A DNA stretch of 37,516 bases, taken from Candidatus Gastranaerophilales bacterium (GTDB lineage Bacteria > Cyanobacteriota > Vampirovibrionia > Gastranaerophilales > Gastranaerophilaceae). The notes under the pieces are model-generated. The model saw nothing but the letters and a program-made list of their open reading frames with translations. It ran no database searches and was not told the DNA's origin. Both the position numbers and the translations under genes were made by a program. Within the stretch, counting starts at the first letter, position 1, and the number at the start of each line of letters is the position of its first letter. Where the stretch lies: positions 1-37,516 of the forward strand of contig CALVEO010000014.1 in assembly GCA_944326615.1 (NCBI GenBank), written 5' to 3'. Below are positions 7,517 to 9,586 of the stretch, piece after piece.

Positions 7517-8407
7517 CTATTCATACACCCTGCATTTTCCATCTTTGATATAATTCATATTTTTTTCATAAATAACATGAGCTGTGCAGGCATCGCCTCT
7601 GTTAAGATAATAGTCACTATTTAGAACTCCTGAAATACCTGCCGGGACAATTCTATCTTTATAAATTACAAAAGTATGCAAATCAATACCCAGAGTATTA
7701 GGAGGAGCACTGCCATTAACGTCAACTCTTAAATATCCGCAAGGATCGCCTTCATTTCCACAGGAATTGCCAAAAGTTAAAGAAGAAATATATGTACCAT
7801 CATTTAAAATTGCATTTGAATAGGAATCCCGTTCATTCAAATTTAATCCAAAAGATTGAGAGCCAATAGACTTATAGCCTAAATCCGGGAAACATCCAGC
7901 TTCTGTTTTCCCGCAGAATTTTAAAACATTCATATATGGCAGTAAATAATATAAAATATCATTTTCATCCTTTTTTGAAACCTGATAATCAATCAAACTC
8001 CATTCAGAAATCTCGCCATTATCCTGTTTTGCTCTTACATAAACATTACTTATAACAGAATAAAATTTGTTCAATTTAGATACATATTCCTGAATTTTAT
8101 ACTTTTGAATTAAAGAAGGCATAGTAAGTGCGGCCACCACTCCGATAATTCCTAATGTTATCAAGACTTCAGCTAACGTAAACGCGGCGCGACGAAGATT
8201 GTTGGAAGTGGCTACGTGCGTATTACCTTCCACCAAAGTAAACGCAGCTTGACGAATGTCGTCAAAGTGGGCTACGTGCGTAGCACATTCAGCTAACGTA
8301 AACGCGGCTTGTTTTCTCTCCAAATTCTTTTCTGAAACCGGAGAATTTACATCACAAAAACCGGCAAAACATGTTTCAGGAGCGGCTAAATGCCCCCCCC
8401 CCGACAT
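7517..8407 (-). CDS. Type IV prepilin-like protein B with repeated, probably phase-variable leader
   Basis: The mature part begins at residue 76 with FTLAEVLITLGIIGVV, the prepilin methylation/cleavage signature, and includes the D-x-N-G...P-N-x-x-G-x-D motif and several Cys. The leader is abnormally long (75 residues) and contains two 20-residue repeats, residues 34-53 and 54-73. Each restarts with AAFTLxE, so three cleavage-like sites exist, of which only the last precedes the hydrophobic helix. In-frame translation at the given G10 tract must begin at ATG 8407, which has no ribosome site. The good start (GGAG, ATG 8430-8428) is in another frame and meets TAG at 8388-8386. One more G, or two fewer, would join it to the pilin. 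Confidence 0.8.
   Translation of the reverse strand: MSGGGHLAAPETCFAGFCDVNSPVSEKNLERKQAAFTLAECATHVAHFDDIRQAAFTLVEGNTHVATSNNLRRAAFTLAEVLITLGIIGVVAALTMPSLIQKYKIQEYVSKLNKFYSVISNVYVRAKQDNGEISEWSLIDYQVSKKDENDILYYLLPYMNVLKFCGKTEAGCFPDLGYKSIGSQSFGLNLNERDSYSNAILNDGTYISSLTFGNSCGNEGDPCGYLRVDVNGSAPPNTLGIDLHTFVIYKDRIVPAGISGVLNSDYYLNRGDACTAHVIYEKNMNYIKDGKCRVYE
8189..8308 (-). repeat. 60-bp coding tandem repeat in prepilin B leader
   Basis: Two 60-bp units (20 codons each) plus a partial third over the mature N-terminus. The shared DNA words are the GTAAACGC-type segment encoding AFTL and a following GGCTACGTGCGTA-type segment encoding THVA. Each unit encodes an A-F-T-L-x-E motif, then x-x-THVA, a variable part and R-R or R-Q. 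Confidence 0.85.
8393..8402 (-). promoter_or_regulatory. G10 tract at prepilin B start, candidate slipped-strand switch
   Basis: Ten consecutive G on the coding strand, 26 nt into the reading frame of the ribosome-site-preceded ATG (MKKISLQECR-). At ten, that frame ends at GGC ATT TAG after 14 residues. At 8 or 11 it would run into the prepilin. Such tracts slip during replication in phase-variable surface genes of other bacteria. Confidence 0.75.
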
Positions 8408-8463
8408 TCTTGTAAACTAATTTTTTTCATAATCCTGCTCCTTATTATTTATCTTACTGTTTT

Positions 8464-8492
8464 ATTATAACATACCTTTCGGAATATTTCAA
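8464..8492 (-). promoter_or_regulatory. Promoter of prepilin B
   Basis: Minus strand: TTGAAA (8492-8487), 17-bp spacer, TATAAT (8469-8464) preceded by TG-T (extended -10). The predicted mRNA has a leader of about 27 nt with the GGAG before ATG 8430, supporting that start over ATG 8407. Confidence 0.75.
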
Positions 8493-8578: not shown

Positions 8579-9499
8579 TTAATCAAATCTCTTATTTTCT
8601 GAATATCTTTCATAATCTAATTTATTCTTTAAAAAGATAGTTTTTAATGCCCCATAACTACCACTACTTGGCTGTAATTTTTGCGGTTGAACAATAATTT
8701 GATGAACGTCAGCCCCATATTGATTGGGGCCTTTGTTTGCACCATTAACATCAATAACCACAGTTGCACATCTTGTATCCGTAATAGTTTCTGTTTCACC
8801 TGTATTAAATCCGTTTTCATCTTTTACATTACTTGTATATGTCCATGGTTCACAAGTCTGTCTTATATCTCTAAAAGAAATTGAACTCCCGTCAACAAGT
8901 AAGAGTCTCGGAAAACCAAAAGATTCCTTCTTAACACCACCCGTACCATTATTTGTAGGTTTTGCCAATTTAACAATATATGTACTTCCACACCCTTTGC
9001 CGGATGATTCACATACCTTTGCTCCGTTATAATATGCTGCTATAGCTTTTGCTACATCCTCTTTTTTGCCGTCGCCGTAAGCAAAAATTGAGGAATAATC
9101 AACTGAACCTGTATCTGCTAACATTCTGTTAAGTACATTCATAAAATTTGAATAACTTTTTTTAGATTGAGCAATCAAAACCTGATCTTTATAGCGTTGA
9201 ATTAAAGAAGGCATAGTAAGTGCGGCCACAACACCGATAATTCCTAATGTTATCAAAACCTCCGCCAGAGTGAAAGCGGCGCGACGAAGATTGTCAAAGT
9301 GGACTACGTGCGTATTACCTTCCACCAAAGTAAACGCGGTTCGACGAATACCGTCAAAGTGGACTACGTGCGTAGCACCCTCTGCCAAAGTAAAAGCTCC
9401 TTGTTTTCTCTCTAAATTCTTTACTAAAACCGGATAATTTACATCACGCAAACCGGCAAAACATGCTTCAGGAGCGGCTAAATGCCCCCCCCCCGACAT
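8579..9499 (-). CDS. Type IV prepilin-like protein C with repeated, probably phase-variable leader
   Basis: The leader closely matches that of prepilin B: MSGGGHLAAPE start, Cys-Phe-Ala-Gly, KNLERKQ, then 20-residue repeats at 34-53 and 54-73, each with AFTLxE and THVVHFD. The mature pilin begins at residue 76 with FTLAEVLITLGIIG. The body after about residue 105 is unrelated to B and rich in Gly, Ser and Thr, with Cys pairs and the D-x-N-G...P-N-x-x-G-x-D motif. ATG 9499 has no ribosome site. The start behind GAGGAG at 9522-9520 is out of frame because of a G10 tract and ends at TAG 9480-9478. Leader and promoter are shared with B, so the two loci can probably recombine. Confidence 0.8.
   Translation of the reverse strand: MSGGGHLAAPEACFAGLRDVNYPVLVKNLERKQGAFTLAEGATHVVHFDGIRRTAFTLVEGNTHVVHFDNLRRAAFTLAEVLITLGIIGVVAALTMPSLIQRYKDQVLIAQSKKSYSNFMNVLNRMLADTGSVDYSSIFAYGDGKKEDVAKAIAAYYNGAKVCESSGKGCGSTYIVKLAKPTNNGTGGVKKESFGFPRLLLVDGSSISFRDIRQTCEPWTYTSNVKDENGFNTGETETITDTRCATVVIDVNGANKGPNQYGADVHQIIVQPQKLQPSSGSYGALKTIFLKNKLDYERYSENKRFD
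9281..9400 (-). repeat. 60-bp coding tandem repeat in prepilin C leader
   Basis: Two 60-bp units in phase with the reading frame, each containing a GTCAAAGTGGACTACGTGCG word on the plus strand. They are the same unit type as in prepilin B (8189-8308), and differ between the two genes mainly by scattered substitutions. Confidence 0.85.
9485..9494 (-). promoter_or_regulatory. G10 tract at prepilin C start, candidate slipped-strand switch
   Basis: The same arrangement and the same length (ten G) as at 8393-8402. The ribosome-site-preceded frame from 9522 stops after 14 codons at this length. Confidence 0.75.
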
Positions 9500-9557
9500 T
9501 CTTGTAAACTAATTTTTTTCATAATCCTACTCCTCATTATTCATCTTACTGTATTAT

Positions 9558-9586
9558 ATTATAACATATATTTTTCTATATTGCAA
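9558..9586 (-). promoter_or_regulatory. Promoter of prepilin C
   Basis: Minus strand: TTGCAA (9586-9581), 17-bp spacer, TATAAT (9563-9558) with TG-T before it. The downstream leader is nearly identical to that of prepilin B. Confidence 0.75.

Follow-up and report, generated by a model that had tools for sequence, protein, structure and literature searches.

The prepilin gene at 7517..8407 on the minus strand raises the question whether a run of ten G close to its start acts as a phase-variable switch that was captured in the OFF state. The window, i.e. the whole stretch of 37,516 nt that was analysed, contained just two G runs of at least 8 nt, one in this gene (prepilin B) and one in the adjoining prepilin A. 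Overlapping G 8-mers occurred six times in the window, compared with 0.04 expected in shuffles, so that runs of this length exceed chance.

Frame logic of the two window loci

Prepilin B is preceded on the minus strand by a sigma-70 promoter (8464..8492) composed of TTGAAA, a 17-nt spacer and TATAAT, with an extended -10 (TG before the -10 element). This arrangement, TTGAAA-17-TGTTATAAT at 8492-8464, matched 11/12 consensus positions and scored highest among 12 promoter matches in the region, in line with the proposal of the first-pass annotation that a strong promoter serves the 8430 start. It is followed by the Shine-Dalgarno sequence AAGGAG (8438..8443), a 7-nt spacer and the strong start ATG (8428..8430). 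The frame opened here reads MKKISLQEC-R, enters the G10 tract (8393..8402, flanked by TC and CA) and continues into CATTTAG, where it is closed by an in-frame TAG (8386..8388); the state with n = 10 G is thus OFF. The coordinates first given for start, tract and stop all held when the minus strand was re-read. Translation from ATG 8430 yields 17 aa at n = 9, 14 aa at n = 10 and 304 aa at n = 11, and the pilin motif is reached at n = 11 (equivalently 8), not at n = 9 or n = 10, which bears out the initial claim that 8 or 11 G join the strong start to the pilin. The prepilin B frame itself (7517..8407, minus strand) comprises 296 aa when counted from ATG 8407 (8405..8407), a codon that is in frame at n = 10 and, as had been noted, lacks a Shine-Dalgarno sequence; it is not general in the family, being confined to the two window copies.

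Prepilin A, whose matching leader, tract and stop had been overlooked together with dozens of similar switches elsewhere in the genome, carries a sigma-70 promoter of its own (9558..9586, minus strand; TTGCAA, 17 nt, TATAAT, extended -10; 10/12 positions). Its strong start ATG (9520..9522) again opens MKKISLQEC, and its G10 tract (9485..9494, flanks TC and CA) is followed by a TAG (9478..9480) that closes the frame at n = 10. The prepilin A frame (8579..9499) encodes 306 aa from ATG 9499, or 314 aa from ATG 9522 at n = 11. ATG 8407 and ATG 9499, which both lack a ribosome site and are in the pilin frame at n = 10, are the starts that an ORF finder reports. Both proteins contain a class III N-methylation signal followed by a hydrophobic helix, with PF07963 (N_methyl) and TIGR02532 above cut-off, and no LPXTG motif was found in either of them, the signal being of the type IV kind instead. 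The leader before the cleavage site is not short, with about 70-80 residues in the window prepilins. For the leaders of this pair, dN/dS was about 0.39 (dN 0.11, dS 0.29).

Each leader also harbours two in-frame 60-bp repeats (8189..8308 in prepilin B, 9281..9400 in prepilin A, both on the minus strand), and in both genes the units repeat the start of the prepilin signal (AAFTLAE). Such AAFTLAE-repeating units are present at many prepilin loci of the genome and contain a short palindromic stretch, GCTACGcaCGTAGC; relaxed matches beyond the window fall in other prepilin leaders. Their appearance suggests palindromic elements that a removable leader can accommodate.

Putative switch loci in the genome and its relatives

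The DNA around each run of at least eight G was examined in the window's genome (G000; 1.96 Mb, 78 contigs). It contained 74 such runs (five G9, 64 G10 and five G11), 61 of which sit shortly 3' of a start codon that has a ribosome site; on the coding strand, about two thirds of these read as G and one third as C. When 52 scorable switch loci were considered, 45 needed exactly one additional base, five were ON and two, both G9, needed the loss of one base. Most of the loci code for prepilins, and their frames measure about 200-550 aa. Upstream of the run, the pilin frame of most OFF loci contains no start that has a ribosome site, and it is interrupted within a few tens of nt. The part of the leader that follows the tract ranges from 8 to about 300 residues elsewhere in this genome. 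Many of the prepilin genes (L007, L013, L019, L030 and others) show up to about 300 codons of mosaic repeats from the run to the prepilin signal; these are open in the pilin frame (e.g. VIAHLLRNLEFVLKRSRN.CAMTGLN and CHCERQNGASQSHN) and resemble translated dispersed repeats. Four further mid-gene or 5' G/C10 runs (C53:4637, C59:2179, C53:10281 and C4:49429), most of them with TC...CA flanks, are in frame at n = 10 and lie in genes for a GT2 glycosyltransferase, a PMT_2-type mannosyltransferase and two other long proteins. Glycosyltransferase genes are a classic phase-variable class.

Relatives were compared using one genome per species, so that length variants were seen among paralogs and species. 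Exact G10 runs are abundant in 29/33 genomes of the genus, the maximum being 169 in G026; the order's other families contain few of them. Across the genus, G9 and G11 are about tenfold rarer than G10; about 84% of the runs of 9-11 G in 19 species, and 94% of the runs in G026, are exactly G10. Tracts flanked by C were split 59:about 940:59 between lengths 9, 10 and 11 (about 6% each for 9 and 11), where the middle figure rests on an estimate, judged from the runs listed, that C flanks about 95% of the G10 runs. Lengths of 9 and 11 are comparatively common among runs whose flanks differ, which makes it doubtful that G10 is a mere attractor for any G run. In five species pooled, 127 of 132 G10 loci (115/120 when counted by distinct leaders) need n = 2 mod 3. 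This register is shared by G-sense and C-sense genes and by all distances mod 3, and with 120 leader peptides on both strands its simple descent from one copy is unlikely. Overall, 14 of 173 scored loci were ON; of the G11 loci with C flanks, 14 were sampled in about a dozen species of the genus, and 13 of these were ON.

The fixed length and direction are kept in the G10 genomes and broken in three others. G029 has mainly G9 tracts (mode 9, needing 8) and some G12 (needing 11), G002 has tracts of 9-14 G in mixed registers, and RGIG8857 has near-identical paralog leaders with 10, 11, 12 and 13 G. A tract length fixed in all relatives had been named at the outset as an observation that would speak against a switch; this is borne out in part, since G10 shows a striking constancy throughout most of the genus, but lengths of 9 and 11-14 occur in other species. 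In G002, which has 82 runs, C after the run is often replaced by A and switches are also found on GT8 and FkbM genes; this genome looks like a case of ordinary phase variation with longer, looser tracts. Three members of the genus (G013, G023 and G027) have at most one such run, and the whole switch system seems to be absent from some species; G013 also lacks a full MutS1 match. Strain variants of the switch were sought in viral contigs, and none were found there.

A TATAAT element is present 20-60 nt upstream of 93/173 switch starts, as opposed to 881/18162 control ATGs (5%). In the n = 10 frame, the median distance from the run to the stop is 10 nt, compared with about 32 nt for the same frame deeper in genes (p about 1e-19), and the G10-OFF configuration therefore looks like a selected state; in the n = 9 frame, the stop follows after 26 nt. 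The pilin frame after the run has a dN/dS of about 0.16 (214 pairs pooled). This indicates purifying selection despite the OFF state seen in the assembly, and hence translation at a frequency sufficient to preserve the frame. C precedes the run in 99% and follows it in 100% of G-sense genes, with a purine thereafter; in C-sense genes, read on the G strand, the respective values are 100% and 95%. Since the flanks are alike on the G strand in either gene orientation, the KC-G10-CR element is conserved as DNA rather than as RNA or codons. Such strand-independent flanks favour a process acting on DNA.

Replication slippage as the probable switch, and competing explanations

These data are probably best explained by slipped-strand on/off phase variation of a large, default-off repertoire of type IV prepilins, with about 50 switches in the window's genome. 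The proposal that prepilin B is a phase-variable pilin recorded in its OFF state, made from this one locus, is the best-supported reading, its frame logic being repeated at about 50 loci of the same genome and in relatives. According to this model, the strong start would be translated into the G10 tract and, at n = 10, terminate at once without producing pilin. Slippage during replication to G11 (or G8) would join the start to the pilin frame and turn the gene ON, and a slip back would return it to OFF. The leader precedes the prepilin cleavage site, and residues encoded by the tract would thus be removed from the mature pilin. A population mostly OFF at each locus is expected because nearly every locus is at G10, with the ON state one insertion away; single cells would then express few pilins from a large repertoire. 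We infer the slippage rate, the reversibility within one lineage, cleavage, expression and the biological role of the switch. Loss of mismatch repair as a cause of tract instability is unsupported for this lineage, MutS1 being present in nearly all members of the genus; given its presence, switching may be slow. If the phase-variation model is correct, peptides spanning MKKISLQECRGGGHLAAPE are expected just from G11 samples.

Several observations speak against phase variation, among them the presence of MutS1 and the small share of loci that are ON (14 of 173). The uniformity of G10 exceeds that of known phasomes, such as that of C. jejuni, in which the major lengths are spread over G8-G11, and the direction is nearly fixed in G10 genomes (+1, hardly ever -1), a bias not foreseen by simple neutral slippage. 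Mutational biases like those of C. jejuni would make G11 short-lived and hold lengths near G10, and an ON state at 11 would keep the loci mostly OFF, an arrangement fitting for a large repertoire. A more far-reaching proposal, which we regard as tentative and rather unlikely, is that KC-G10-CR is more than a passive slippery run and that a dedicated process silences as many as about 170 genes, most of them for pilins, and opens a few of them at a time, resulting in near-exclusive pilin expression. Such a process may consist of a factor that recognises the element in DNA and fixes the tract at ten G, or of a slip by one base with a bias in direction or rate.

Because length and direction are so strict in the G10 genomes, slippage at the level of expression remains the main rival of replication slippage. 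RNA polymerase slippage (+1 base) or -1 ribosomal frameshifting at G10 would let every locus yield a small, steady proportion of in-frame product from unchanged DNA, a scheme that also suits the early zero-frame stop and the purifying selection on loci assembled in the OFF state. It is at odds with the finding that mRNAs with G runs and with C runs follow the same rule, that the flanks are conserved on the G strand of the DNA and not on the RNA strand, and that the run can be read in any phase, all distances mod 3 being represented. In addition, G11 ON alleles are present in the DNA, and other species use 9, 12 or 13 G with -1 or mixed directions. The variation seen in G029, G002 and RGIG8857 means that the run changes length in the DNA and that one programmed shift does not fit all species. 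Taken with these points, an expression-level mechanism appears unlikely.

An error in the assemblies, with a true length of mostly 11 (ON) that is reported as 10, is improbable. Tract lengths in databases can be wrong, as for an annotated G11 of Bifidobacterium breve that was 59% G12 (PMC9187656), but the same assemblies hold G11 and longer runs, G10 is also dominant in genomes made up of few and long contigs (G007, about 8; G025, about 5), and a general loss of one base would break the non-pilin mid-gene runs, which are in frame at n = 10. Finally, a constitutive start at ATG 8407, with the upstream start due to chance or giving a leader peptide, is very improbable: ATG 8407 and ATG 9499 do lie in the pilin frame in both window copies, but the former has no Shine-Dalgarno sequence and is separated from the run by only 5 nt, ATG 8430 is the start that suits the promoter and ribosome site, most OFF loci lack an upstream pilin-frame start that has a ribosome site, and ATG 8407 was rejected as a general start for its absence from other OFF loci of this kind.

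Known systems and biological meaning

Homopolymer phase variation of pili is of a known kind; the novelty lies in the lineage and the scale, in a single default-off register and in flanks that are conserved. The closest likeness is to the pilus switch of Bifidobacterium (bbr_0113 and bbr_1889; PMC9187656), likewise from a gut commensal, in which a strong promoter and start serve a short upstream frame, an intragenic G10/G11 tract precedes a pilin frame without start signals of its own, and a one-base slip restores the frame from a default OFF state. At a G10 pilus locus of B. breve, replication slippage was demonstrated, with 93.4% G10 and 6.5% G9 in one culture, and the tract mixture shifts with conditions in mice (PMC9187656). 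The Bifidobacterium pili are sortase/LPXTG pili with a Sec signal, encoded in one or two clusters per genome, whereas the proteins described here are type IV prepilin-like and encoded at about 50 loci (up to about 170 runs per genome), in G and C sense, with a uniform +1 register and conserved flanks. Type IV pilus assembly genes (pilB, pilC and pilD) have been reported in a relative (PMC5877343).

Neisseria pilC1/pilC2 and other poly-G genes share the in-frame homopolymer, slipped-strand mispairing and pilus-related ON/OFF switching, but comprise two pilC genes with G9-20 and on average about 15-20 poly-G tracts per genome (PMC5953494), compared with at least 74 tracts, nearly all G10, here. 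The phasome of C. jejuni consists mostly of glycan and surface-modification genes. It resembles the present system in its many coding-region G/C runs that control surface structures (PMC4965091), with 29 loci of G>=7 in strain NCTC11168 (PMC4965091), and differs in that lengths are spread over G8-G11, whereas mainly pilins in one shared register are found here. PMC4085013 cites an insertion bias at G8-G9 and a deletion bias at G10-G11 in C. jejuni, which produce a length attractor near G10. Genes with programmed transcriptional slippage, such as those of IS elements (PMC5009743, PMC1088944), similarly combine a homopolymer with an early zero-frame stop and a conserved direction; the runs analysed there were of A and T (PMC1088944), in contrast to the G/C runs, strand-independent DNA flanks and ON alleles in DNA seen here.

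No description of phase variation of this kind in Melainabacteria/Vampirovibrionia was found in the literature searched, which covered a minority of subscription papers. The number of tracts per genome is well above the poly-G counts for C. jejuni (29 loci) and Neisseria (about 15-20). The switch genes would probably be called by annotation pipelines as short fragments or with wrong starts, and this common gut lineage is therefore likely to have a large surface repertoire that is misannotated. If a dedicated process does act on the KC-G10-CR element, a relative of cyanobacteria that is not photosynthetic would express its surface pilins in a nearly exclusive manner.
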